Source: Halococcus salifodinae DSM 8989 (lineage in GTDB: Archaea; Halobacteriota; Halobacteria; Halobacteriales; Halococcaceae). Taken from it: a stretch of 41,786 nucleotides of DNA. Numbering within the stretch: the first letter of the stretch is position 1; each line of letters begins with the position of its first letter. The notes under the pieces were generated by a model. It did not search any database and was not told the origin of the DNA. It saw only the letters and a list, made by a program, of their open reading frames with translations. Positions 6,204-40,515 of this stretch are shown one piece after another. The DNA is taken from the NCBI RefSeq assembly GCF_000336935.1, contig NZ_AOME01000108.1:40281-82066 (forward strand), in the 5' to 3' direction. The translations under genes and the position numbers were made by a program.

Positions 6204-6460
6204 TGATCGCCACCGCCCTCGCCGGGAACGAACACGAGTTCGTCACCGTGGTCGCTGTACTTGTCGAGTCGCCACCCGTCGGCGTTCGCGGCGCGAACCA
6301 GCCGGAGTACCGTCACCATCGCGGGCGCTCCGTTGCGAATATGGATGCGGATACGCTTGCCGTCGTGATGCGGGCGCGGCTCGGATTCGACGGTGTAGCG
6401 GTCGCGGTCGGTGCGGTCGGCGGCGAAGTCGGGGAGTGCCTGCTGATCGTCGTCGGTCAT
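6200..6460 (-). CDS. Small hypothetical protein, operon A
   Basis: An 86-residue protein. ATG 6460 overlaps the stop of the preceding gene by 4 bp; a longer upstream reading is basic and out of character. It contains HHDGKRIRIHIRNGAPAMVT and VLRLVRAANADGWRLDKYSD, a mixed alpha/beta pattern, then an acidic C-terminus. No family recognised. It sits third from the 5' end of a tightly coupled operon, so probably works with its neighbours. Confidence 0.6.
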   Translation of the reverse strand: MTDDDQQALPDFAADRTDRDRYTVESEPRPHHDGKRIRIHIRNGAPAMVTVLRLVRAANADGWRLDKYSDHGDELVFVPGEGGGDQ

Positions 6461-6717
6461 CGGCCGCTCTCCAACTGCTGGCACTCTGTGCAGTGCTCGT
6501 TGGCGTTGTCCGACCGTTCGCTCGTGTATCGGATGTGTACGCCGCACGAGACACACCGCACGCGCTCGCGGTCAAGCGGTCCATTGTAGGCAATTGCACG
6601 CTCGGTGTGGACGCGCTCGGGAACCGGCGACTCGGGTTCGCAGGGGGCGCTGGCGATGGTGCCGCTGGTCGTGACCGATGCGTCGGATTCAAACCGTTGG
6701 GTTGCGTTTTCGATCAT
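6457..6717 (-). CDS. First gene of operon A: small zinc-ribbon protein
   Basis: An 86-residue protein with a C-terminal ribbon, CVSCGVHIRY ... HCTECQQL, likely to bind Zn2+. The N-terminus (MIENATQRFESDAS) is closely similar to that of the first gene of operon B (MTENVTRRLESDAS), although the rest of the two proteins differs. The shared leader and shared N-terminus suggest the 5' end of the operon was copied as a unit. Translation begins directly after the start-proximal hairpin of leader L1. Function unknown. Confidence 0.66.
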   Translation of the reverse strand: MIENATQRFESDASVTTSGTIASAPCEPESPVPERVHTERAIAYNGPLDRERVRCVSCGVHIRYTSERSDNANEHCTECQQLESGR

Positions 6718-6812
6718 GGTTGTCTGCCCAAAAGACAGCCAGCCCGCGCGTTGTAGCGCGCGGGCACTTCCTTTCCGCTCGAAAGTGCCCCGAGGGGCCG
6801 GTCTGTCTCTAC
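6718..6812 (-). ncRNA. Structured 5' leader RNA, copy L1 (operon A)
   Basis: Predicted 95-nt leader on the minus strand, from an inferred start at 6812 (GTAGAGACAGACCGG) to the ATG at 6717. Homologous to copies L2-L4. Possible helices in order: GCCC-CUCG-GGGC; GGGCACUUUC with GGAAGUGCCC; GCCCGCGCG with CGCGCGGGC (9 bp, loop CUACAA); and GGCUGUCU with AGACAACC (one mismatch) ending right at the start codon. Adjacent hairpins share strands. A TATA-like CTTTATCA at 6834-6841 is centred about 26 bp upstream of the start. Upstream of that, L1 has no similarity to the other copies, so the conserved unit is the transcript, not the promoter. Confidence 0.72.
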
Positions 6813-6833
6813 CTATGCGTTATAGAGCTATGG

Positions 6834-6872
6834 TGATAAAGCTACCGATTGCGTTATTGAGCAAAGGTTAAA
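6834..6872. promoter_or_regulatory. Divergent promoters for operon A and the HTH-HicBA operon
   Basis: Minus strand: CTTTATCA (6834-6841) is the TATA box for leader L1. Plus strand: AAAGGTTAAATG (about 6862-6873) is a TATA-like box about 28 bp before ATG 6897, predicting an essentially leaderless mRNA for the HTH-hicBA genes. The contrast between a leaderless gene and a 95-nt structured leader starting from the same small region is notable. Confidence 0.55.
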
Positions 6873-6896
6873 TGCGTGCCGGTCGTTGGTGTAGCC

Positions 6897-7145
6897 ATGC
6901 CCGAAGACAGGGAATCGGAAAAACCTCGAAATAACGCCGGACAGTTCGTAAAAACCCGTTCACCGGACGATGTGTATAGTGCGATGGACCCAGCAGAGCC
7001 ATACACGACCGGCGAGCTTGCCGACGCGCTCGGATGGCCCCAACGGTCAGTGTATCAGGCCCTCGATGACCTAGCCGATGATGGTGAGATACGGAAGAAA
7101 AAGACTGGCCCGCGACAAGCGATTTGGATTCGGCCGGGGGAATAA
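6897..7145 (+). CDS. Small winged-helix regulator, first gene of the hicBA operon
   Basis: An 82-residue protein. An HTH is evident in EPYTTGELADALGWPQRSVY followed by QALDDLADDGEIRKKK and a wing-like GPRQAIWIR. Its layout resembles the 135-residue HTH protein at 14559 (NAGQFVK here, EGRFVQK there). ATG 6897 is preferred over an upstream GTG (6876) because it sits at leaderless distance from the TATA box. It lies just upstream of hicB and may add a layer of repression to the operon. Confidence 0.7.
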   Translation: MPEDRESEKPRNNAGQFVKTRSPDDVYSAMDPAEPYTTGELADALGWPQRSVYQALDDLADDGEIRKKKTGPRQAIWIRPGE

Positions 7146-7147
7146 TT

Positions 7148-7399
7148 ATGAGCGCAGGACTCCGCCGAATCAGGTTGACTGAGAATCCTGATGGGTGGTG
7201 GACGGCCTATGACGAAGAGGCCGAGGCGGTCTCGCAGGGACCCACCCGTGAGGATGCCCTCGAAAATCTCGATGAAGCAGTCAAACTCATCGAAGAAGAG
7301 GACTATGGGCGTGAACCAACTGAGGAGGAACTGCGTGAGTGGGGTATCGATGTGGAGGAATACGGGACTGGCGGCGATCTCCCCGAGGTCCTGAAGTAG
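7148..7399 (+). CDS. hicB: HicB-like antitoxin
   Basis: An 83-residue protein with the partial RNase H-like HicB fold: IRLTENPDGWWTAYDEEAEA, VSQGPTREDALENLDEAVKL, then an acidic tail. The pattern of strand, Gly-Pro/Ser turn and EAL-type helix is diagnostic of HicB/UPF0150 proteins. No C-terminal DNA-binding domain is present, so repression may be left to the separate HTH protein encoded 2 bp upstream. HicA follows 10 bp downstream. Confidence 0.82.
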   Translation: MSAGLRRIRLTENPDGWWTAYDEEAEAVSQGPTREDALENLDEAVKLIEEEDYGREPTEEELREWGIDVEEYGTGGDLPEVLK

Positions 7400-7409
7400 G
7401 TGGCTCGGT

Positions 7410-7664
7410 GTGGTCACACGCGATTTCTCCGGCTACGACGTGATGAAGGTCTTGGTCAACAAAGGGAATTTTGAACGGACACGGGTTCGTGGCGATCACG
7501 TGCGGCTCGAATGGGTCCATCCCGACGGTTCTGACGTTGAAACCCGCCATGTGACGGTTCCGCTCCATGACCGAGTTCGGGTCGGGACTCTCCGTCAGAT
7601 AGCTGAGAATGCAGGCGCAAAGGAGTTCGATGCGTTCTGCCGATGGGTTGACCGCAATCGGTGA
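7410..7664 (+). CDS. hicA: HicA-like mRNA interferase toxin
   Basis: An 84-residue dsRBD-like protein with a GTG start. FSGYDVMKVLVNKGNFERTR, GDHVRLEW, HVTVPLHDRVRVGTLRQIAE match the HicA layout: G-x-H catalytic region (here RGDHVRL), V(T)VP-x-H, and G-T-L-R-x-I. HicA is a ribosome-independent mRNA interferase. The order hicB-hicA is the reverse of the Escherichia coli arrangement but common elsewhere. It converges with the beta-CASP RNase gene, with a 14-bp gap. Confidence 0.84.
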   Translation: MVTRDFSGYDVMKVLVNKGNFERTRVRGDHVRLEWVHPDGSDVETRHVTVPLHDRVRVGTLRQIAENAGAKEFDAFCRWVDRNR

Positions 7665-7678
7665 CTTCAGAGTCGGTA

Positions 7679-9511
7679 TCAGGAGTTAGTGACCGTCTTG
7701 TGGCTGTTTTCGATTTCATCGCGAACGATACGGCGTATCTCTGCTTCCGAGGGGCTGGTATCGTTCCGAGCGGCGGCGAGGTCTTCGCTCATCGCGGATA
7801 GCTGCTCTTGGAGAACTTCGATTTTCTCGTGAGCGGAGAGATCGTCGGCGGTCTCGAAGTTCTCGGGCGAGAGTGCTGGCGTGTCAACGTCGATATCGCG
7901 CGAGACGGCAATCGGCGTGAGCATCCGGCTGCGTGTTGCCTGTTGGATGCTCTCGACGTTCTTGGCGAGATGAGTCGCAAGGTGGCCCTGTGCGTACTCC
8001 GGGCCGTGAATGAGCGCTACCGTCTCGGGGCTCACAGTTCGGACGAACTCTAAAAGGCCGTGCTGGGCGGCGTGGCCACTCAACCCGTTGATCGTACTCA
8101 CCCAGTCGGCAGGGATCGTCGCGCGGGTAACCGGCTTGCTCTTTCCGTCCTCCTCGACAGTTGTCCGCACGATGTTTGAGACAGAGGGCCAGTCGGTGCC
8201 GAGCGGTTCGCTGTCCACGGTATAGGTGAGTTCGTCCTTCTCAGCCTTGCGTTGGTCTTGGAGCACGCGCCCGGTGGTGTTCTGGGCCTGATAGCCGGTG
8301 AGAAAGACGTTCGCGGAGCCGAAGCGGGCGGCGAACTCGGTGAGATACCGCGGGGAGTTGCCACCAGTAAGCATCCCCGACGGCGCGATGATGATCGGGA
8401 CCTTGCCACCCGAGCGGGCCGCGTCGGTGAGGATCGCCCGCCGGTCGCTGTCCGAGCTCGGAAAGGCGGTGCCGTCCGGCAGGAACGGTTTCGAGGTACC
8501 AGACTCGACGCGATTCACGATCGATTCGTCCATATAGCTTGCGTCGGTGGCGAACTCGTGGTAGATGTCGATCGCCTCCTGGGCCATGCCATCAACGACG
8601 AGTTGGACCCGATCTTGAATGTCGTCTGAGAGCGTGTGCAGCCGATTAGCGAACAGGAGCATGAGCATCTGGGCGCGACCGACTGCGAAGGTGGGGATAA
8701 GGACGGGTTCGCCGGACTGGACCGCACGCTTGGCTGCGTCGTAGAGGCTCGACTGTGCATCACTCATTGCGGTGTGGCTGTGGAGCGACCCGTAGGTGGA
8801 TTCGAGGACGAGCAGATCGGCCTGCGGTGGTGCGGTGATGTCCGGGAGGTGGGGTGCGCGCCCGCCGAGGTCGCCCGAGAACACGGTGCGATAGCCGTTG
8901 GTCTGAAGCATCAACCATGCCGACCCGAGCAGGTGGCCGGCGTTGCCCATCTGGAATACCAGCGGGTCCTCGTCGGGGATGGGCGCGAGGGCTTCGACGC
9001 GGCCACCGCCGTACTCGACGGGTTCGAAGCGCTCGAATACGTCCTCGACGTGGCTCTCGACGTACTGCTGTTCTTCGCCCGCATGACGGCTTTCGCGGCG
9101 ATGAATCTTCAACGAGTCTTCGAGCAACGTTTTGGCGATTTCGATGGTGGGTGGGGTGGCGATGATCGGCGCGTCGTCGGCGAGCAACCCGCGGGCTTCG
9201 AGGATTGGCAGGCCGCCGGAGTGATCGATGTGAGCGTGGGTGAGGAAGACTGCACCGATGCTACCGGGTTCCAGCCCACGAAAGTCGGGGAATGAGTCGC
9301 CGGTCCCCTGATTGAGTCCACAATCGACGAGGGTGGTGCTGAACTCGGTGTCGACCTGGTAGCAGCTCCGTCCGACCTCTCTCGCGCCGCCGCGGGGGGT
9401 GACAGCTATCGGGGTCTCGGTGTCGATCTCGATGTCGGCGTGTGCAAGCGGGTCGAACGTTTCGTCGGCGTCGGCCGGCAACCACGGCATTTCTTCGTTG
9501 ACTCCGCTCAT
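7679..9511 (-). CDS. Beta-CASP metallo-beta-lactamase RNase, last gene of operon B
   Basis: A 610-residue protein of the MBL/beta-CASP family (RNase J/CPSF73-like nucleases). Visible motifs: VDCGLNQG (motif 1, about 62-69), HAHIDHSGG (motif 2, 92-100), NAGHLLGSAW (motif 3, about 190-199), FSGDLGG (motif 4, about 211-217), LESTYG (beta-CASP A), IIAPSGML (B), FLTGYQAQNTTGR, LSGHA and LIHG (C). All metal ligands appear present. There is no N-terminal KH domain, unlike archaeal aCPSF1. About 100 extra C-terminal residues are acidic and coiled-coil-like. Its start overlaps the HhH gene by 4 bp, which makes it the distal gene of an operon that begins with leader L2. RNA processing or decay is likely; the substrate is unknown. 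Confidence 0.88.
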   Translation of the reverse strand: MSGVNEEMPWLPADADETFDPLAHADIEIDTETPIAVTPRGGAREVGRSCYQVDTEFSTTLVDCGLNQGTGDSFPDFRGLEPGSIGAVFLTHAHIDHSGGLPILEARGLLADDAPIIATPPTIEIAKTLLEDSLKIHRRESRHAGEEQQYVESHVEDVFERFEPVEYGGGRVEALAPIPDEDPLVFQMGNAGHLLGSAWLMLQTNGYRTVFSGDLGGRAPHLPDITAPPQADLLVLESTYGSLHSHTAMSDAQSSLYDAAKRAVQSGEPVLIPTFAVGRAQMLMLLFANRLHTLSDDIQDRVQLVVDGMAQEAIDIYHEFATDASYMDESIVNRVESGTSKPFLPDGTAFPSSDSDRRAILTDAARSGGKVPIIIAPSGMLTGGNSPRYLTEFAARFGSANVFLTGYQAQNTTGRVLQDQRKAEKDELTYTVDSEPLGTDWPSVSNIVRTTVEEDGKSKPVTRATIPADWVSTINGLSGHAAQHGLLEFVRTVSPETVALIHGPEYAQGHLATHLAKNVESIQQATRSRMLTPIAVSRDIDVDTPALSPENFETADDLSAHEKIEVLQEQLSAMSEDLAAARNDTSPSEAEIRRIVRDEIENSHKTVTNS

Positions 9512-9825
9512 CGTTGTTCACCCACCTTGTGGTTGTTCACCTCGGCGATGATGAGACGTGCGCGCCGTTCACCGATTTCATCGATTGTCAGCAGGTCCTC
9601 GCGGGTGGCGTCGGCGAGGTCTGCGATCGTCTCGTAACCTTCGTCGGGGAGGCGGTGGGCGAGCGCTGGTCCGACGCCGTCGAGGCTGGTCAGATCGGGT
9701 GACTGCTCGCCGTTGCTGTCGCGCGCACACATTGCAAACGGCGGGCGGTCGCCGACTGGTACGCCCTCGTCTTCGTCGTGGTCGTCTGACTGTTCTGTCG
9801 TGGTGCGTGGTTGGTTGTTTGGCAT
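9508..9825 (-). CDS. Helix-hairpin-helix protein
   Basis: A 105-residue protein. The acidic, Pro-rich N-terminal half is followed by a tandem HhH unit (LTSLDGVGPALAHRLPDEGY, LTIDEIGERRARLIIAEV) of the kind that binds DNA backbone non-specifically (RuvA/Rad51-like). ATG 9825 (MPNNQPRTTTEQ) is chosen over longer readings, which are basic and overlap other genes. It is coupled by ATGA to the beta-CASP RNase gene, so the two may act together. The HhH unit resembles those fused to the VirB4-like ATPase in this window. Confidence 0.78.
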   Translation of the reverse strand: MPNNQPRTTTEQSDDHDEDEGVPVGDRPPFAMCARDSNGEQSPDLTSLDGVGPALAHRLPDEGYETIADLADATREDLLTIDEIGERRARLIIAEVNNHKVGEQR

Positions 9826-9851
9826 GTTGATGCTTTTCGGTGTTGGTATTG

Positions 9852-9989
9852 CTATTGTTGAACGCCCCGAAGCCCTGTCGGTCGAAGATCGTGTTCGTGG
9901 TGGGTGGCGGACGCCTCCATCATCGTCGAATCCTTGGCCTCGACCATCGGGCCACAGATCGCACACTCGACACGAATGACGCCTTTCAT
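9852..9989 (-). CDS. 45-residue Cys/His-rich protein, operon B
   Basis: A very small protein, MKGVIRVECAICGPMV ... SATHHEHDL, with a CxxC followed by a His cluster, consistent with a single C2H2-like zinc knuckle. Its ATG overlaps the upstream stop by 4 bp (ATGA), and 26 bp separate it from the HhH gene. The tight coupling and zinc-finger pattern support a real gene despite its length. Confidence 0.58.
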   Translation of the reverse strand: MKGVIRVECAICGPMVEAKDSTMMEASATHHEHDLRPTGLRGVQQ

Positions 9990-10450
9990 CGGTCGGCTTG
10001 CTCGACGTGGATCGTGACGTTGCCGGTGTCGTAGTCGGCCTCGACAAGCTGGACCTCGTAGGCGTCTGCCTGGACGGCGGCGCGGTAGGTCCATTCGAGC
10101 GCGTGGCCGTCGTTCGTGAACTCCGGTCGGCCGTAGTCGCTCTCCCCGACGATTTTCCCGCGTACGACCTTGCTGTTGTAGAACACGGTCGAAATGTAGG
10201 GCGCGCTCTGGGTTTCGATCTGTGCCTCGGTGGTTTGTGGGACTGCGACCCGTCGGGGATCGTCGTCGACGAAGGCTTTCGCGCGCTCGACACTCCCGGC
10301 GATCTGGCGGGTGCGCTCGCCCGATAGAACATTCACGGGAACCGTGCGCTCGGCGTGGGCTTCCGAATACAGCACTTCCTCGTACGTCCGCGTTCCTCGA
10401 ATAGCTTCGTCCCCGAGCGGTGCGTCCGCGAATGCGTCGGTGTCGCTCAT
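9986..10450 (-). CDS. Hypothetical protein, operon B
   Basis: A 154-residue acidic protein (MSDTDAFADAPLGDEAIRGT). Its C-terminal half is predicted to be beta-rich (SAPYISTVFYNSKVVRGKIV, LEWTYRAAVQADAYEVQLVE, GNVTIHVEQ). No cysteines and no recognised family. Coupled to its neighbours by 4-bp overlaps at both ends. Haloarchaeal codon use and acidity argue that it is expressed. Confidence 0.62.
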   Translation of the reverse strand: MSDTDAFADAPLGDEAIRGTRTYEEVLYSEAHAERTVPVNVLSGERTRQIAGSVERAKAFVDDDPRRVAVPQTTEAQIETQSAPYISTVFYNSKVVRGKIVGESDYGRPEFTNDGHALEWTYRAAVQADAYEVQLVEADYDTGNVTIHVEQADR

Positions 10451-10626
10451 AGGCCGTCCTCCTGGCGGGCTTGGCGGCGGGCGTCACGCTCGGCTTGCCG
10501 GGCGTCGGCGCGAACGTGCTCGTATTTGAGTTCGCAGGGGGTCGAACAGAACCGGCCGCTGAAGCCACCGCCGCCGCGGGGTTCGTTGCTGCACGAGAGG
10601 TTCCGACACTCGTCGCGGTCGGTCAT
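10447..10626 (-). CDS. 59-residue zinc-finger protein, operon B
   Basis: A small protein with CRNLSCSNEP ... GRFCSTPCELKYEHV, four cysteines in a C-x4-C ... C-x3-C arrangement followed by an Arg/Ala-rich basic helix (ARQAERDARRQARQ). The basic helix is unusual among acidic haloarchaeal proteins and suggests nucleic-acid contact. ATG 10626 overlaps the upstream stop by 4 bp. Confidence 0.6.
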   Translation of the reverse strand: MTDRDECRNLSCSNEPRGGGGFSGRFCSTPCELKYEHVRADARQAERDARRQARQEDGL

Positions 10627-10769
10627 TGATCGGCCTCCTCGGGTTTTGAGACGAGAATCGTTCCACGCGAGCGGCACCACGCGAGTCCGTATCCGTCGGA
10701 ATCAAACGATACGGGATGAGTGTCGTCACACTGTGAGCACTCGTATGTTTGGCGTTCGCCGTGGCTCAT
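10623..10769 (-). CDS. 48-residue Cys-rich protein, operon B
   Basis: A tiny protein, MSHGERQTYECSQCDDTHPV, with a CxxC pair, a later single Cys (GLAWCRSRGTIL) and a His. It may form a small zinc site. Both ends show 4-bp start/stop overlaps with the genes around it, which is the main support for its being translated. Confidence 0.55.
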   Translation of the reverse strand: MSHGERQTYECSQCDDTHPVSFDSDGYGLAWCRSRGTILVSKPEEADQ

Positions 10770-11287
10770 GCTTCCTCCGTGGTGCTCTCGCCCGCGATCT
10801 CGAACGGGTAGAACGTCGCGTACGTACCGTCGGCGGAAGCGTCCTCGTTGACGAGGGTCGTCGAAGGGCCGGTCGACGCGTTGACGTGGATGACACCAGC
10901 AGGCCGGCCTTCGCCGCCGGGGAACGTCGCGGGAGCGAACTCGCACAGCGCCTTGATGATTCCGTTGCGGAACGCCGCCCCGTTCTCGCGCTCGTTCAGG
11001 TCGCGGTCAAACCGTGTTTCGTGGGTGTAACGGGAAAGCACCTGCTCGATCGAGAGGCCGTAGCGGTAGGTCGCGCTCGGCTCAGGGGCTTCGTCGGTGG
11101 GCGCGGTCGTGAACGTCTTCGGGTCGCCGTTGTCCCAGCGCGTGCGGGCTTCAACCGCGCCGTCCGCACGAACGACGAGCGCCCAGTCACCGACCGCGTG
11201 AACCGTCTCGCCGTCGGCTTCGCTGGTCGGTTGGTGGTCGGCAGGCGATGCGTCGGATTCAAGTCGTCGGGTTACGTTTTCGGTCAT
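10766..11287 (-). CDS. First gene of operon B: hypothetical protein
   Basis: A 173-residue protein of unknown function. ATG 11287 (MTENVTRRLESDAS) is chosen because it lies immediately after the start-proximal hairpin of leader L2 and matches the N-terminus of the first protein of operon A. The middle has a beta-rich block (GDWALVVRADGAVEARTRWD) and helical stretches (YRYGLSIEQVLSRYTHETRF, GAAFRNGIIKALCEFAPATF). No catalytic motif recognised. Confidence 0.62.
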   Translation of the reverse strand: MTENVTRRLESDASPADHQPTSEADGETVHAVGDWALVVRADGAVEARTRWDNGDPKTFTTAPTDEAPEPSATYRYGLSIEQVLSRYTHETRFDRDLNERENGAAFRNGIIKALCEFAPATFPGGEGRPAGVIHVNASTGPSTTLVNEDASADGTYATFYPFEIAGESTTEEA

Positions 11288-11379
11288 GGTTGTTCTCCAC
11301 CGAGACAACCAGCCCGCGCGTTGTCGCGCGCGGGCACTTCCTTTCGTGAAAGTGCCCCGAGGGGCCGGTCTGTCTCTAC
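11288..11379 (-). ncRNA. Structured 5' leader RNA, copy L2 (operon B)
   Basis: Predicted 92-nt leader from 11379 to the ATG at 11287. Helices: GCCC-CUCG-GGGC; GGGCACUUUC/GGAAGUGCCC; GCCCGCGCG/CGCGCGGGC (loop CGACAA); then GGUUGU/ACAACC extended through an A bulge by CUC/GAG with loop GGUG, abutting the AUG. The TATA equivalent (CTTTAA on the plus strand, 11402-11407) is centred 25-26 bp upstream of the inferred start. The purine-rich GGUGGAG inside the last hairpin is the only Shine-Dalgarno-like stretch, and it would be hidden in the loop and stem. Confidence 0.75.
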
Positions 11380-11401
11380 TTCACCGTATGCACTACACCT
11401 A

Positions 11402-11570
11402 CTTTAATGTTTTACTTCGGGGTTGTACTCTGAGTCTTACGTCGTTCGGTTTCGGTGCTCACAAGGCGCTGAAGCCGGTGGGATGGGCGTGGTGGTGCGC
11501 CACGCGACTGTGCTTGTCATAATAGTCCAGTTCCGAAGCCGCTGAGACCGCTGCTGTCGTCCGTACAGCG
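11402..11570 (-). repeat. Promoter and upstream repeat of leader L2
   Basis: First of three long homologous promoter regions (others at 13007-13165 and 14318-14480). From the gene outward: TATA box (TTAAAG read on the minus strand), a box reading GAGTACAACCCCGAAG, and a distal 16-bp box (CTTGTCATAATAGTCC on the plus strand, 11513-11528) that lies exactly 109 bp from the TATA box in each copy. The block ends with conserved CCGAAGCCGCTGAGACCGC. No coding sequence is credible here. The rest of the gap to 11634 shows nothing further. Confidence 0.7.
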
Positions 11571-11634
11571 GTGCTCGTCTGGTCTTCTTTCGAGGGGGTG
11601 ATCTCCTTGAACCGACGGGCTGGGTCGGGGGCAG

Positions 11635-12417
11635 TTAGTGACCGTGGTTGGGAAGTTCGGGATCGGCGAGCGCGAAGCCATCAATGCGGGCGTCGAAAGT
11701 GAGTGTGGCGGTTGCGACCACCTCGCCGGGTTCGTCGGCCTCGCCGTCGCCGGGCGGACCACAGTCTTCGCAGCTAACCCAGCGGAGCGACCACTTGTCT
11801 GTGTCGCGGACACGGGTCGCGTACACGACCACCGTATCAGGGTCTTTGTCGTCGAGGTCATGCTCGCGGTGACCGTCAGTCAGCCGCCGGTTGCACGAAT
11901 CACACGCGGCGCTGCCACCGGGGCCACCGACGGGCGTGCCGGCGAGCATCGCCGGGGTGAGCGCGTCGTCTTCGTGGTCGTCCTCGACGCGGCCACCGTC
12001 GGCGAGCGCTCGGGGTGCCTCGTCGTCCGCAGCCGTGTTCGCGGTGGGTTCGTCGGCTCGGTCGTCACTGCCGGCGTGGGTTTCGGGGGCGTCGTCGTCG
12101 GATTCGTCGGTCTCAAATAGGCATTGGCTGGCGGCGCGTTCGCCCGTGAGTGTTTGCTGGTCGTCCTCGGTGTCGGCGAACAGCGAACCCTGCTCGCCCG
12201 CGTCGGCCGACGTGGCTTCCGGGCGATCGTCCACACCGAAGGTGGTAGCTTCGGGCTGGTCGATCTGGCTATCCCGCTCGCGGTGATCCACGTTCGCGCC
12301 GAACGCTTCCAGCGATGTTTCGATACTCTCCTCGGCGGCTTCGATGCCGTCCGTCTCGCCGTCCTCGCCGACCGAAAAAGCGTACTGCTGGGTGATGGTC
12401 GGGGTGTCGTCGCTCAT
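11635..12417 (-). CDS. Acidic zinc-ribbon protein, operon C
   Basis: A 260-residue very acidic protein. The N-terminal 150 residues look disordered (long D/E/T/A tracts). The C-terminal third has a ribbon-like fold with CDSCNRRLTDGHREHD and WVSCEDCG, probably a Zn2+ site, set in a beta-rich domain (TVVVYATRVRDTDKWSLRW; EVVATATLTFDARIDGFAL). It overlaps the SWIM-protein gene by 4 bp and ends operon C. No enzymatic motif seen. Confidence 0.66.
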   Translation of the reverse strand: MSDDTPTITQQYAFSVGEDGETDGIEAAEESIETSLEAFGANVDHRERDSQIDQPEATTFGVDDRPEATSADAGEQGSLFADTEDDQQTLTGERAASQCLFETDESDDDAPETHAGSDDRADEPTANTAADDEAPRALADGGRVEDDHEDDALTPAMLAGTPVGGPGGSAACDSCNRRLTDGHREHDLDDKDPDTVVVYATRVRDTDKWSLRWVSCEDCGPPGDGEADEPGEVVATATLTFDARIDGFALADPELPNHGH

Positions 12418-12890
12418 GCTGCCAGGACCTCCTCGACGCGCTCTTTCTTGTCGGGGCTGATCCCGAGCTGGCCGATAGCTTCGATAGCGGACGCGCCGGG
12501 GTTGTTCGCGGCGAATTGTTCGACACGCTCGGCGAGCGTCTGACTGTCGTCGGTCTCTGTCTCGGTATCGGCGTCGGTGTCGTCGGTCTTGTCGCTCGAT
12601 TCGACACGAACACCGTCAATGTCTGGGATTTCGCCGGTAACGAACGCGACTCGGTGGGCGTGTTTGCACCACGATCCGCGCTGGCCGTCGGGACACGTAC
12701 ACGATCCATCCGACGGGTCCACCGTGTAGGTGTTGCCCGACCCACTGAGCACCGTGTATTTGCCGTTGTCGCCGGCTGCTTCGACGTGGAAGAAGCTATC
12801 GAGCGCACGGGTAACACGCTTTGCGACCGCCTCAACACCGCGTCGTTCGTCGTCGGTACGTTCTTGACCGTTGGGTTCGTAGGCGTTCAT
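12414..12890 (-). CDS. SWIM zinc-finger protein, first gene of operon C
   Basis: A 158-residue protein with a SWIM motif, SCTCPDGQRGSWCKHAHRVA (CxC...CxH), preceded by the typical beta hairpin GKYTVLSGSGNTYTVDPSDG. SWIM domains bind Zn2+ and mediate DNA or protein contacts, for example in MuDR transposases and Sws1/Shu-type recombination proteins. The C-terminal part has an acidic linker and a helical unit (ASAIEAIGQLGISPDKKERV). The start codon follows the start-proximal hairpin of leader L3 directly. Confidence 0.78.
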   Translation of the reverse strand: MNAYEPNGQERTDDERRGVEAVAKRVTRALDSFFHVEAAGDNGKYTVLSGSGNTYTVDPSDGSCTCPDGQRGSWCKHAHRVAFVTGEIPDIDGVRVESSDKTDDTDADTETETDDSQTLAERVEQFAANNPGASAIEAIGQLGISPDKKERVEEVLAA

Positions 12891-12984
12891 GGTTTGTCCG
12901 TTGAAACAAACCGGCCCGCGCGGTCTGAACGCGCGGGCACTTTCCTCGTTGGAAAATGCCCCGAAGGGACCGGTCTGTCTCTAC
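12891..12984 (-). ncRNA. Structured 5' leader RNA, copy L3 (operon C)
   Basis: Predicted 94-nt leader from 12984 to the ATG at 12890. It is the most diverged copy in hairpins 1 and 2, yet keeps pairing: CCC-UUCG-GGG in hairpin 1, GGGCAUUUUCC with GGAAAGUGCCC in hairpin 2 (11 bp including one G-U), GCCCGCGCG with CGCGCGGGC (loop UUCAGAC), and GGUUUGU with ACAAACC ending at the AUG. Base changes that preserve or wobble pairs, compared with L1/L2/L4, support a selected RNA structure. The TATA equivalent is at 13007-13012. Confidence 0.75.
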
Positions 12985-13006
12985 TTCATCGTATGCACTA
13001 CACCCA

Positions 13007-13165
13007 CTTTAATGCTTTGCTTCGGGGTTGTACTCTAAGCCTCATGTCTTGCAGTTTTGGCATTCACAAGCCGCTGAAACCGGTGAGTTGGGCGTGGTAG
13101 TGCGCCACGCGACTGTGCTTGTCATAATAGTCCATCGCCGAAGCCGCTAAGACCGCTGCTGTCGG
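13007..13165 (-). repeat. Promoter and upstream repeat of leader L3
   Basis: Second long promoter repeat, homologous to 11402-11570 and 14318-14480. It holds the TATA equivalent (CTTTAA on the plus strand), the CTTAGAGTACAACCCCGAAG element read on the minus strand, and the distal 16-bp box at 13118-13133, again 109 bp from the TATA box. It fills the gap between operons D and C, so a terminator for operon D may also lie here, but none is obvious. Confidence 0.7.
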
Positions 13166-13195
13166 CGGCTAATCACCGAACAGACAGAGGTTCGG

Positions 13196-13450
13196 TCACA
13201 CAACGATCTTCCCGCCGCGTTCGTACCATTCCGCTTCGACTGGAATAACGGCGTCACAGTAGCCGCACCCAATAGTTCCGTCGTCGTGGTGCTCGAAGGT
13301 CTCCGAAGACGCGAGACACCACGGGCAACAGTCGTCCCCGCCACGTTGATCGGGTGGCGCGAGATTCGTCCTCGCGCTCGACGAAGAAGGCTGTTCGGTC
13401 GTGGGCGTGTCACTGAGTTCGTCGTCGTCGGTAAGCGTGGTTTGGTGCAT
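13196..13450 (-). CDS. Zinc-ribbon protein, last gene of operon D
   Basis: An 84-residue protein. ATG 13450 (MHQTTLTDDDELS) starts an acidic protein; a longer reading is basic and unlikely. The C-terminal half contains CCPWCLASSETFEHHDDGTI followed by GCGYCDAVIPVEAEWYERGG, a classic two-CxxC zinc ribbon. The stop is about 30 bp from the L3 promoter repeat. No specific family recognised. Confidence 0.66.
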   Translation of the reverse strand: MHQTTLTDDDELSDTPTTEQPSSSSARTNLAPPDQRGGDDCCPWCLASSETFEHHDDGTIGCGYCDAVIPVEAEWYERGGKIVV

Positions 13451-13482
13451 GGGTGCCTCCGAAAGCGATCGAACCCGGACAG

Positions 13483-13596
13483 CTATCGCGCGCCCTCCCG
13501 TCGCCAACAGATACCGCACAGTCCGCGCGTGACCGACCGAGGCGCAGCCGGGTCGTCGTATGTGGTGTCGTCCGTTCCGCAAATCGCACAGTTCAT
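13483..13596 (-). CDS. 37-residue zinc-ribbon protein, operon D
   Basis: MNCAICGTDDTTYDD ... GLCGICWRREGAR: two CxxC motifs 24 residues apart make a minimal zinc ribbon. It begins 4 bp after the stop of the SWIM-protein gene and ends 32 bp before the start of the last gene of operon D. Very short, but the motif pair and the position within an operon of Cys-rich proteins make it credible. Confidence 0.55.
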   Translation of the reverse strand: MNCAICGTDDTTYDDPAAPRSVTRGLCGICWRREGAR

Positions 13597-13600
13597 CGGC

Positions 13601-14203
13601 CTACTCCTCGGGGTAGGCGATGCGTCCGGTCCACGTCCGCTGTGCGTCACGCGAATGGGCTTCACCGTCGACCCGGAACGAACCCGTCGCACCGCAGGAC
13701 TGGCACTCGTAGAACTCCTCCCACTTCTGATTATTACTGTCCTCGGTCGCGGCGATCATGGCGACCTCGAAGCGCGACCCGCAGGACTGGCATTGTCGTT
13801 TCTCGCCTGCGCCCTCGACTTCATCGCTGTAGTGTGCGACCTCGTGGCCCCAATGATCGGCCTGGGGATGGTCGTGGTCGTGGTCCGTTTCGTCGGTCGT
13901 CTCGTCGGTTTCGATGACCGTGCCGCCGTCGGTGGCGATTTGCTGGCCGATCTCCGCCGCAGCTGCTACCGCGCTCGACCGCACGAGTGGGCGGGTTTCG
14001 ATCTCGTCTTGATGGACACAATGGCCGTTGAACTTGTGGCCTTTGCAGGAACAGCGAACGACCTCACCCGCACCGTCGACGAACACCGAGTGGGCGCGGT
14101 CGGATTCGGGGCGCTTGACGTTGATAACGCCGTTGTGGCAAACCGTGGTTTTGAGGCCGATGCAACCGGATGTTTCTTGACCGCTGAGTTCGTTCGTCGT
14201 CAT
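13601..14203 (-). CDS. SWIM-like plus zinc-ribbon protein, first gene of operon D
   Basis: A 200-residue protein with an N-terminal SWIM-like site, VVRCSCKGHKFNGHCVHQDE (CxC...CxH), and a C-terminal ribbon, RQCQSCGSRFEV ... YECQSCGATGSF. The middle is His/Asp-rich (DETDHDHDHPQADH), which may bind metal. It is a functional cousin of the SWIM protein of operon C, and its start codon sits at the same position after a leader (L4) whose start-proximal hairpin matches that of L3. This suggests operons C and D arose by duplication. Confidence 0.76.
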   Translation of the reverse strand: MTTNELSGQETSGCIGLKTTVCHNGVINVKRPESDRAHSVFVDGAGEVVRCSCKGHKFNGHCVHQDEIETRPLVRSSAVAAAAEIGQQIATDGGTVIETDETTDETDHDHDHPQADHWGHEVAHYSDEVEGAGEKRQCQSCGSRFEVAMIAATEDSNNQKWEEFYECQSCGATGSFRVDGEAHSRDAQRTWTGRIAYPEE

Positions 14204-14295
14204 GGTTTGTCCGTTGAAACAAACCAGCCCGCGCGGTCTGAACGCGCGGGCACTTCCTTTCGTGAAAGTGCCCCGAGGAGCCGGTCTGTCTCTAC
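14204..14295 (-). ncRNA. Structured 5' leader RNA, copy L4 (operon D)
   Basis: Predicted 92-nt leader from 14295 to the ATG at 14203. Hairpin 1 is GCUC-CUCG-GGGC, where a C-to-U change is tolerated as a U-G pair. Hairpin 2 is identical to L2. Hairpin 3 has the 9-bp GC stem with the L3-type loop UUCAGAC. The start-proximal hairpin GGUUUGU/ACAAACC is identical to L3. This mixture of L2-like and L3-like parts suggests recombination among copies. The TATA equivalent is at 14318-14323. Confidence 0.75.
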
Positions 14296-14558: not shown

Positions 14559-14966
14559 ATGGCATCAGACGAAGACGAAACACGAACCAACAAAGCCGGA
14601 CGAGAAATGGACAGTGAAGGGCGCTTCGTGCAGAAATTCGACAAAGAGGACGTGATGAAAGTCTTCGATATGGTGGAAGGGCCGGCGATCGTGGCGGGCG
14701 ACGTGGCCGAAGCATACGATTCGCAGGCTGAGACCGCACGGCGGCGGCTCCGCGAGTTGTACGCCGACGGTCGGGTGGACAAGCGCAAGGCGCGCAAGCG
14801 AGTGTTGTGGTGGCGTACGGACGAGGACGGGCCGGATGTGGCTGACGTACTCGCGGGGAACGATCCCGAGACGATCCTGAAACTCCTGTCGCTCAATCTC
14901 GGCGAAGCGATTACCGTGGGCGATACCGTCTACGAAAACGGCAGCCAACATCCTATCGAGGACTAA
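14559..14966 (+). CDS. Winged-helix regulator
   Basis: A 135-residue protein. The central HTH reads VEGPAIVAGDVAEAYDSQAE followed by TARRRLRELYADGRVDKRKA and a wing ending RVLWWR. The C-terminal segment (DETILKLL-like helix, then AITVGDTVYENG) may be a dimerisation or sensor part. The N-terminal EGRFVQKF resembles NAGQFVKT of the HTH protein at 6897, hinting at a shared family. Its divergent position beside operon D makes it a candidate regulator of the repeated promoters. Confidence 0.72.
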   Translation: MASDEDETRTNKAGREMDSEGRFVQKFDKEDVMKVFDMVEGPAIVAGDVAEAYDSQAETARRRLRELYADGRVDKRKARKRVLWWRTDEDGPDVADVLAGNDPETILKLLSLNLGEAITVGDTVYENGSQHPIED

Positions 14967-15013
14967 ACCACTCCTCTTCTGTCCGGCAATAGTCCAAAAC
15001 CGGGCAAAGGCTA

Positions 15014-15070
15014 ACTTAGAGTATAAAGCCGAAGGTAAAATTTGAAGTGGGTGTAGTGCATGGTATAGAT
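15014..15070 (+). promoter_or_regulatory. Plus-strand promoter related to the L2-L4 promoters
   Basis: CTTAGAGTATAAAGCCGAAG (15015-15034) and GAAGTGGGTGTAGTGCA (15044-15060) match the minus-strand promoters of L3 and L4 almost base for base (CTTAGAGTACAACCCCGAAG; AAAGTGGGTGTAGTGCA in L3). Here they face the opposite way and drive the gene at 15108. The structured leader does not follow; instead there is a small GGCC-GAGGAA-GGCC hairpin (15073-15086) and a GGGAGG Shine-Dalgarno-like site (about 15089-15094). Confidence 0.68.
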
Positions 15071-15107
15071 ATGGCCGAGGAAGGCCGTGGGAGGTGAATC
15101 AGGAAAA

Positions 15108-17003: not shown

Positions 17004-17052
17004 GCACTAAGAACTACGTGCTCCGTACTCCGCACTGAGTACGCGGTACTAA
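17004..17052 (+). repeat. Heptamer array 2: seven perfectly abutting 7-bp units
   Basis: GCACTAA, GAACTAC, GTGCTCC, GTACTCC, GCACTGA, GTACGCG, GTACTAA from 17004 to 17052 without a gap. Same unit as array 1, between the ATPase gene (stop 16977) and the RHH-like gene (start 17096). It occupies the position of a promoter or operator for the second gene. Forty-nine bases made of seven units is very unlikely by chance. Confidence 0.82.
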
Positions 17053-17095
17053 TTCACGGCTCGACACCCTCCACGCTACAACAGGACCCACATCG

Positions 17096-17554
17096 ATGAC
17101 AGAAACCAACGACAGTGACACCGACACCGACGATAGCGGCGATCTCGGCGGCGTGCTTGGTGAGGTCGGCCTCGACTACGGGGACGATGAAGCCGGCGAC
17201 ACGCCGGAGAGCAACGAGACGGATTCTGAAGGCGAAGCCAGTGATTCTGATCCACCACAGGCGTCCGACGACTCAGCGGACGCTGACGAGCAATCGAGTG
17301 ATGAATCGGAATCAGGATCGGGAGCGGACGATGGCCCGTTCGCACCGGACCCCGGAATGCAACTCACGAAATCGTTCGGGACGAAACTCACGCCGCCCGA
17401 AAAGGAGTTCATCGAGTTGTACGTCGAGTTCTCCGACGAGTATGACAACCCCGGCGCGTTCTTGCGTAAGTTCGTGAAGGAACTCCGCCGAGAGTACGGT
17501 GAAGAGGTGATGCGGCGAAAAGAAGCACTCGAAGAACTCAAAGGGGGATTCTGA
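17096..17554 (+). CDS. Acidic protein with predicted C-terminal ribbon-helix-helix domain
   Basis: A 152-residue protein. The first about 85 residues are an extremely acidic, low-complexity tail (MTETNDSDTDTDDSGD and similar). The C-terminal 65 residues read QLTKSFGTKLTPPEKEFIEL, then YVEFSDEYDNPGAFLRKFVK and a charged helix. A short strand (KSFGTKL), a first helix and a second helix after the DNPGAF turn fit an RHH fold, the class of DNA-binding protein that recognises heptad centromere/operator arrays in pSM19035 omega and related partition proteins. This assignment is by pattern only. It is encoded just after the AAA+ gene and is the best candidate to bind the heptamers. Confidence 0.62.
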   Translation: MTETNDSDTDTDDSGDLGGVLGEVGLDYGDDEAGDTPESNETDSEGEASDSDPPQASDDSADADEQSSDESESGSGADDGPFAPDPGMQLTKSFGTKLTPPEKEFIELYVEFSDEYDNPGAFLRKFVKELRREYGEEVMRRKEALEELKGGF

Positions 17555-17808
17555 AATGGGCCGGAGAGAGCGTCACCTGCGATACCGTGGGCGTTCGCGG
17601 CACCGACGACTTGCAGAATGGGGTCCCCGTGGCGTGCGCTGTCGGTCCGGAGATGTATATCATGTCCTCTGAACGCCGAAACCGTCGCCAATGCCACTCA
17701 AGAGGCAGGATCAAACAGCGCTCCGAGAGTGGCGGCGGACTGTGGGGGACCGTGCTCATTCCTCGTGCGCTCTCTCGGGGGCCAACCGACGGATAAGACA
17801 GCCATCAC

Positions 17809-17998
17809 ATACTCCGTACTCCGTACTCCGTACTCCGTACCCCGCACCGCGTGTTGCGTGCGTTCTCCCCCGTACTGCGTGCTCGGTTCTCCGCTATTTC
17901 GTACTGGTGTCTCGCTATCCCGTGCTGAGAACGGCGGACTGAGTGAGCGGTACGGAGATCGGCATACTCCGTCCTCGTCACGGCGTCCGTAGTGCTCT
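17809..17998 (+). repeat. Heptamer array 3, about 27 units, right part degenerate
   Basis: It begins ATACTCC, then three copies of GTACTCC (17816-17836), GTACCCC, GCACCGC, GTGTTGC, GTGCGTT, and later GTACTGC, GTGCTCG, GTTCTCC. After a one-base slip near 17900 the 7-bp rhythm resumes with GTACTGG, GTGCTGA, GGACTGA, GTACGGA, GTCCTCG and GTGCTCT. The unit and orientation are those of arrays 1 and 2. Degeneration toward the right suggests that only the left end is under strong selection. Confidence 0.72.
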
Positions 17999-18320
17999 GC
18001 GTTCAGGTGGCGCGTGTGGCCGCCCAGTGCGCCGCTGTGGGTGCCCAGCGTGGAAACGGGTGTCCATCCCTCCATCTCGCTCTCTCGCCGTTTCTGGCCC
18101 CGCTGCTGGCGGAGATATGAGTCCCACGCTGCTATGGTGCTCTTGCCTTCCGACGACAGCCACTCCGCTGGCCCGGACCCCGAGCGTGCGTCCCCGTGCT
18201 GAGGACCCTGCTGCTGCCCTCCAACGATCTCCCCACCGCTGCTGACGACCGCTGCTCCGCTGGTGCTATGCCGACCCGCACCGCTGCCGCACTGGTGGGA
18301 CCCCGGTTCTGCTGATACTG

Positions 18321-18642
18321 CCCGGACCCCGGCTTTGTCGTCACGTTACTGTGCTGTCGCACTGCTGTTTTTTCAGTGCTGTGCTGTGTCTCTCACCTGT
18401 TGGCCCCCCAGTCTGTCGTCACTCACCCGGCCCCGGCCATGCTGATACTGCTGGACATCCAGGACTCGCGGTACTCTCATCAACTCGCTGCTTCGCTCAC
18501 TCGGCCCCCGGTCATGCTGACACACGCTTCCATCAGCGGTCAGTTGCTGCGCCACCTCGGCCCCCAGTCTGTCGTCACTCAATCACCATCACTCCATACT
18601 CAGTGTCTCGCCTGCCGGCCCCCGGTCTGTCGTCACACTCAT
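18321..18642 (+). repeat. Longer direct repeats with core CGGCCCCC(A/G)GTCTGTCGTCAC
   Basis: Near-identical copies start at about 18400 (TGGCCCCCCAGTCTGTCGTC), 18558 (CGGCCCCCAGTCTGTCGTCA) and 18616 (CGGCCCCCGGTCTGTCGTCA). Weaker versions are at 18321 (CCCGGACCCCGGCTTTGTCG) and partial ones at 18428 and 18502 (CGGCCCCCGGTCATGCTGAC). All are in the same orientation with uneven spacing, so they are not a simple tandem repeat. They look like iteron-type binding sites inside the non-coding region. Confidence 0.62.
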
Positions 18643-18763
18643 CCATCATCGGTGTTCCACTCCCTGGCTTCTGCTCCTGCTGGCTCCTCAGCTGGCACCA
18701 TCAGCATTCTGGCAGGTCCAGTCAGTGCTTGCTTCACTCGGCCGGGGTCCCCACGTCGTCGTC

Positions 18764-18924
18764 AGTCCTCAGTTCGTAGTTCTCAGTTCGTAGTTCGCAG
18801 TCCTCGGACACCCATGCTCAGTTCGTAGTGCGCGGCTCGCAGTTCGCAGTTCTCAGTCGCCAGTTTCCAGTCCGTAGTTCGGCGTACTCACACACGGGGT
18901 CCTCCGTTCTCCGCACTCCGTAAC
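18764..18924 (-). repeat. Heptamer array 4, mostly inverted relative to arrays 1-3
   Basis: Twenty-three units in phase from 18764. Units 1-17 read AGTCCTC, AGTTCGT, AGTTCTC, AGTTCGT, AGTTCGC, AGTCCTC, then after two diverged units AGTTCGT, AGTGCGC, AGTTCGC, AGTTCTC, AGTCGCC, AGTTTCC, AGTCCGT, AGTTCGG. Their reverse complements are GAACTNN-type units like those of arrays 1 and 2. The last units (around 18897-18924) switch to the forward type, GTCCTCC, GTTCTCC, GCACTCC. Inverted arrays at the two sides of the non-coding region suggest a bracketed nucleoprotein structure. Confidence 0.78.
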
Positions 18925-40211: not shown

Positions 40212-40515
40212 TCGATAGCGTCGTCGGTGAAGGCCGCAGCCGCTTTGTCAGCGTTGGTGTTGCTTGCTCGTTCTCGTCCCGTCAGCATCAGCCACCATCT
40301 CGATCCTCGTCGCAGATTGAATGCCGATTCCCACCCCTGATCCTGTTCTCAGTCCCGTTTCTGCGGACTGGATGTCGTCTAAGACGACGATTCGTGGCCG
40401 GTGGAGGGTGCCAGCAGATTCACTTTCACTCCTCTACCCGGATGTTTTTGGGTGTTAGTCGCCAACCGCAGGCGTCTCCCATCGAACACACATGGAGGCA
40501 GGACGATTCCAACTC
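40212..40515. other. About 300 bp upstream of the RPA gene
   Basis: No supported gene. It should contain the RPA promoter. The stretch ends with GATGTTTTTGGGTGTTAGTC and a C/A-rich approach to the start codon; a clear TATA box at leaderless distance was not found, so a leader of some tens of nucleotides is likely. Confidence 0.4.

Follow-up and report, generated by a model that had tools for sequence, protein, structure and literature searches.

The stretch of DNA analysed here (the window; 41,786 nt) comes from Halococcus salifodinae DSM 8989 (GCF_000336935.1) and covers positions 40,281 to 82,066 of the forward strand of contig NZ_AOME01000108.1. Four of its operons are each preceded by a structured leader, and these leaders represent a previously undescribed RNA family of what is probably a known kind, the leader RNA switch. 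An earlier note on this DNA had described four homologous leaders of 92–95 nt, and they are found as listed below, all on the minus strand and each abutting the ATG of an open reading frame (ORF). All four are matched over their full length (positions 1–132, 95.3–102.3 bits) by R2, a model made from 72 diverse copies and 40 coding nt with the promoter region excluded. As L2 and L4 are training rows of R2, it is the matches in other records that form an independent test.

6718–6812, minus strand: leader L1, 95 nt, up to the ATG at 6717–6715; R2 match of 95.3 bits
11288–11379, minus strand: leader L2, 92 nt, up to the ATG at 11287–11285; R2 match of 98.9 bits
12891–12984, minus strand: leader L3, 94 nt, up to the ATG at 12890–12888; R2 match of 102.3 bits
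14204–14295, minus strand: leader L4, 92 nt, up to the ATG at 14203–14201; R2 match of 100.5 bits

The common 5′ end that had been claimed for these leaders is real, as GTAGAGACAGACCGG is identical in all four and the first 15 nt are the same. About 240 bp including the promoter are common to L2–L4, which are therefore duplicates of one module, and sequence comparison within the window bears out that the promoter of L1 is unrelated to theirs. The proposed constant distance of the TATA box holds across 115 copies, where T-T-A-W, counted back from the first conserved base, stands at −27 to −24; transcription is predicted to start at that base, about 25 nt after the TATA box. A sequence like the promoter of L2–L4 (AACTTAGAGTATAAAGCCGAAGG...GAAGTGGGTGTAGTGCATGG) was also seen at window positions 15010–15075 on the plus strand, with no leader behind it. 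Furthermore, an element of the form GTCTCAGCGG ... ATTATGACAAG, possibly a regulator site, lies about 135–170 bp upstream of L2, L3 and L4 (L3 has GTCTTAGCGG) and at the same distance before three leaders on contig C20 of the same genome (L009), and is absent from L1.

The leaders are predicted to be strongly folded RNA, with folding energies of −49.6 to −53.3 kcal/mol for L1–L4 (z of −4.5 to −7.2 against dinucleotide shuffles, with 0 of 200 shuffles as good). The earlier note had seen three or four hairpins; the strong folding stands, but in the dominant predicted fold the helices P1, P2 and P3 meet in a three-way junction instead of standing in a row, and an alternative hairpin, P4, is added beside the AUG. 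A single row of hairpins was rejected, since it is less stable than the three-way junction and the pairs of the junction co-vary; an extended P3 pairing over the P2/P3 boundary was rejected because, by inspection, it is lost in copies with GAGC for GGGC. The two strands of P1 lie as follows in L4.

14278–14292, minus strand: P1 5′ strand of L4 (leader nt 4–18), starting with GAGACAGACCGG, which is invariant in the four window copies
14216–14230, minus strand: P1′ strand of L4 (leader nt 66–80), whose partner is either the 5′ strand (P1) or the AUG-proximal strand (P4)

Pairs of all four helices were counted on a MAFFT alignment that was not fitted to the structure. The covariation asked of the leaders is present there: both partners have changed in 24 of the 26 P1/P2/P3 pairs, which together reach a covariation score of 0.401, compared with 0.197 after shuffling and at most 0.160 in slid registers. 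Paired cells make up 84.7% of P1, P2 and P3 together vs 73.0% when shuffled, and the six top column pairs of mutual information, computed with average product correction and no structure supplied, all fall within P1, P2 or P3. Helix cells hold more G-U than A-C (163 vs 72), as is expected of RNA from the transcribed strand. This conservation of pairing by compensatory changes agrees with the argument, made before from promoter position, for a function in the RNA.

The strand P1′, which lies 3′ of P3, is complementary also to the last nucleotides before the AUG. P1 and P4 both use this strand and therefore cannot form together. The P4 hairpins of the window are:

14204–14225, minus strand: P4 hairpin of L4, GGUUUGUUU-CAAC-GGACAAACC, touching the AUG and exclusive with P1
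12891–12912, minus strand: P4 hairpin of L3, touching the AUG
11288–11310, minus strand: P4 hairpin of L2, touching the AUG
6718–6740, minus strand: P4 hairpin of L1, 8 positions with one mismatch, touching the AUG

When duplex energies were compared with permutations, the pairing of P1′ with the AUG-proximal strand reached a z of −12.2 and that of the 5′ strand with P1′ a z of −9.8, with controls between −1.8 and +1.2. The P4 covariation score of 0.245 lies above that of shuffles (0.156) and of slid registers (no more than 0.183), and P4 holds under the strictest usable clustering (10 sequences; 3 of 5000 permutations). By computed energy, 71 of 72 leaders favour the P1 fold, the mean advantage being 7.1 kcal/mol, and once the 5′ strand is freed, five or more of the final 12 nt become paired in 65 of the 72. 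Blocking the 5′ strand of the window leaders lowers the mean unpaired probability of positions −9 to +3 from 0.74–0.80 to 0.20–0.48. Alignment and energies thus support the co-variation of both alternative helices and their mutual exclusivity. An intrinsic terminator was rejected, as no U-run follows P4, judged by eye with no terminator scan made.

Conservation does not stop at the start codon, and runs on for about 37 nt into the coding sequence, which the earlier note had missed. It includes a motif at +25 to +37, found in the window at these positions:

6681–6693, minus strand: coding-region RNA motif of L1, TTTGAATCCGACG
11251–11263, minus strand: coding-region RNA motif of L2, CTTGAATCCGACG
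12854–12866, minus strand: coding-region RNA motif of L3, CAAGAACGTACCG
14167–14179, minus strand: coding-region RNA motif of L4, CAAGAAACATCCG

Across 72 copies, the third codon base at nt 27 is A or T in 98.6%, where the background of these genes is 28%. Position 29 is A in 92%, position 36 (also a wobble position) C in 96% and position 37 G in 96%. Since wobble positions are conserved in genes for unrelated small proteins, selection acts on the nucleic acid and not on the peptide. Pairing of the motif with the leader was rejected, with no clear co-variation and no duplex signal.

The family extends far beyond the window, as had been anticipated for a covariance-model search, and is found across Halobacteria, on plasmids and in viruses. 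A first model, R1, combines 14 leaders taken from H. salifodinae and two other genomes of its genus, without promoter and without coding region; T-T-A-W and the coding motif lie outside it and are thus independent support for the family. R1 matches occur in 110 of 391 Halobacteria genomes (50 of 86 genera), and 88 of the 106 matches that were read out have an ATG at the model end. With R2, matches at E ≤ 1e-3 are found in 294 of the 391 genomes and 76 of the 86 genera, the weaker of which may include GC-rich chance matches; at E ≤ 1e-10 the number is about 170 of 391. The genome of H. salifodinae itself holds nine strong copies, namely the four of the window, three on contig C20 and one each on contigs C2 and C26. 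In a sample of 295 genomes of the phylum, 35 have a match, all in the same order, and none was found outside it. Plasmids with strong matches are those of Halobacterium salinarum, Halococcus dombrowskii, Halomarina, Halalkalicoccus, Natrinema and Natronococcus, and the virus HJTV-4 also matches strongly. The Halobacterium salinarum copy on pHSAL1 spans 116479–116615 of its record. Viruses BJ1 (24.4 bits) and Halorubrum tailed virus DL (Antarctic; 26.6 bits) give weak matches to divergent forms, which sit where expected, between the divergent gene and the first gene of the operon, with a perfect GCUGUC...GACAGC hairpin immediately 5′ of the ATG. The leader-bearing operon of BJ1 encodes a SWIM protein. 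Humcor1 appears to carry another divergent form, with the same layout by eye, and the model found no match there. That no known RNA family corresponds to the leaders was upheld, as Rfam 15 gave no match in the window at gathering score and none at E ≤ 1 for ten loci (one of this genome and nine others). No description of the leader RNA was found in open-access titles, abstracts and passages, a search that left most subscription papers outside.

The genes behind the leaders and the divergent gene upstream of L4 are listed here.

6457–6717, minus strand: first gene after L1, 86 aa, CxxC protein
10766–11287, minus strand: first gene after L2, 173 aa, no Pfam match
12414–12890, minus strand: first gene after L3, 158 aa, SWIM zinc finger (PF04434, E 1.2e-5)
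13601–14203, minus strand: first gene after L4, 200 aa, Cys-containing protein
14559–14966, plus strand: divergent regulator-like gene upstream of L4, matching transcriptional-regulator PHROGs

The gene cluster that includes 14559–14966 stands upstream of 53 of the 109 leaders that have a divergent ORF. Further copies had been predicted to precede Cys-rich operons, and this is true in part, as SWIM-like first genes make up 35 of 115 and those with another CxxC 34, leaving 46 with neither. A zinc-responsive leader was rejected on account of these 46. With their first 15 residues removed, the first genes form 25 clusters, largely of small unknown, SWIM or CxxC proteins, and do not belong to one ligand-linked pathway; the gene content suggests no small-molecule ligand. 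Leaders at five loci (L146, L028, L117, L145 and L156) precede very short ORFs of 8, 8, 23, 27 and 43 aa, which suggests that a leader can perhaps outlive decayed genes. For BJ1 ORF7 (L197, 171–222) and the Halalkalicoccus SWIM gene (L159, 4998), the annotated start lies inside or before the leader, and the true start is more likely the ATG at the leader end. Elsewhere in the window, 7124–7664 on the plus strand holds two small neighbouring ORFs, the first apparently corresponding to a protein annotated as a HicB-family antitoxin on a related H. dombrowskii plasmid, and 17013–18900 holds clusters of short direct repeats of the ACTCCGTACTCCGTAC and CTCAGTTCGTAGTTC types. Downstream of L2, the minus strand at 7679–9511 encodes a beta-CASP metallo-beta-lactamase nuclease-like protein, which is kept on related Halococcus plasmids.

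Sequence comparison supports the leader family, its structure, its position and the co-variation of P1 and P4, and from these we infer an effect on translation, the ON state, the trigger and a role for the coding motif. The leaders are probably cis-acting translational switches, with the AUG open by default and closed when P1 is disrupted. The leader RNA would be made from its own promoter and fused straight to the start codon of a small-protein operon. In the default fold its 5′ end would pair with P1′ and close the three-way junction, which would keep the nucleotides before the AUG single-stranded so that the ribosome can load. If the 5′ strand or the junction were occupied or opened, P1′ would be released to pair with the AUG-proximal strand, and the P4 stem against the AUG would block initiation; the motif at +25 to +37 probably helps the binding of the ribosome or of a factor. 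There are precedents in Haloferax volcanii, where stabilising a stem-loop in a 5′ untranslated region (5′-UTR) abolished translation and destabilising it made translation constitutive (PMC2636863), and where synthetic riboswitches that mask the AUG work (PMC8241225). It is these precedents, together with the two exclusive helices, that lead us to favour a translational switch that is open by default.

Several observations weigh against such a switch. The covariation of P4 is weaker than that of P1/P2/P3 and depends on register, since the pairing is shifted between CC-AUG and CCC-AUG copies, and the P4 stems of some copies are poor. The strictest usable clustering weakens P1 (147 of 5000 permutations). 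Furthermore, the energies apply to 37 °C and standard salt, not to haloarchaeal molar KCl, and shared ancestry is only partly removed by the permutation and shuffle controls. Finally, the sequence of the 5′ strand differs among leader copies within one genome, and a trans factor would therefore have to read the junction, the loops or the coding motif.

The proposed switch resembles translational riboswitches and leader RNA switches in that a 5′ leader with a conserved multi-helix fold has two mutually exclusive helices, the second beside the start site, as judged from sequence and energy. It is unlike translational riboswitches in that the AUG itself, and not a Shine-Dalgarno sequence, lies at the hairpin, the genes share no pathway, and an extra conserved motif stands in the coding region. 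Synthetic theophylline riboswitches of H. volcanii likewise control haloarchaeal translation by pairing over the start codon, but are engineered and mask the Shine-Dalgarno sequence too (PMC8241225). Similarly, the 5′-UTR of the H. volcanii hp transcript HVO_0721 is a natural leader without Shine-Dalgarno sequence in which stem stability controls translation, but it has one weak hairpin (−7.4 kcal/mol) and concerns one gene, with no family described (PMC2636863). Within the published text accessible to us, the nearest remark concerns the different and shorter repeats of halovirus Hardycor1, which stand before six ORFs and overlap the start in three, giving similar N-termini, and whose leader is short, about 40 nt (PMC7911831). 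Homology to them was rejected, as the best R2 match (E 0.27) lies elsewhere in the Hardycor1 genome. The short Hardycor1 leader, CGGGGCGACCCGG ... CGACC-ATG before HrrHc1_045, _095, _160, _230, _235 and _245 (L210), is apparently a separate case. The intergenic repeats of halovirus HF2 also carry promoters before viral genes, but are DNA promoter repeats (PMC8707807); no convincing R2 match was found in the first 40 kb (best E 0.41), and homology was rejected.

A broader reading, tentative at present, makes the leaders an RNA device of the whole class that plasmids and viruses of haloarchaea have spread. A single host signal or factor, common to all copies, would act through it on the first gene of their operons, and the device might be an initiation element resembling an internal ribosome entry site (IRES) with an obligatory coding motif. 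Somewhat less probable is a constitutive structured initiation element, a loose archaeal analogue of a viral IRES and not a switch, in which the junction and the coding motif place the ribosome on the non-Shine-Dalgarno AUG of plasmid and viral operons. The leader abuts the AUG in nearly all copies, is common to plasmids and viruses, and is conserved at the RNA level beyond the start codon; Shine-Dalgarno-like 4-mers, rejected as the content of the P4 loop, are not clearly enriched (35 of 72 vs 28 ± 4 shuffled). Such an element does not, however, need a P4 that co-varies and excludes P1. It is also unlikely, to a slightly greater degree, that a conserved host RNA-binding protein reads the junction or coding motif and controls translation or mRNA decay with no metabolite involved. 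The conserved unpaired or apical positions (the CUCGGGG junction and the P3 loop flanks), a coding motif that does not co-vary with the leader and the nuclease-like protein encoded downstream of L2 would fit a protein ligand, but a canonical kink-turn of the L7Ae type is not apparent in P2, judged by eye with no dedicated search made. A DNA-level repeat (operator, recombination or replication site) standing by chance before genes is very improbable, for although divergent regulator-like genes and shared upstream elements are common and L2–L4 arose through duplication, the TATA-leader and leader-ATG spacings and the orientation are fixed, G-U exceeds A-C, and pairing is conserved rather than sequence.

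Most haloarchaeal mRNAs are regarded as leaderless, and to our knowledge few natural RNA switches are known in archaea. If the reading as a class-wide device is true, no natural RNA switch family would have been described before it for mobile elements of archaea. The leader ends correct annotation, as for the start sites of BJ1 ORF7 and the Halalkalicoccus SWIM gene. As the leader occurs in the majority of the sampled genera of the class, on Halobacterium salinarum plasmids and in viruses such as HJTV-4 and BJ1, it offers a system in which to test how archaeal ribosomes initiate on long leaders that lack a Shine-Dalgarno sequence, and how mobile elements control their genes post-transcriptionally.

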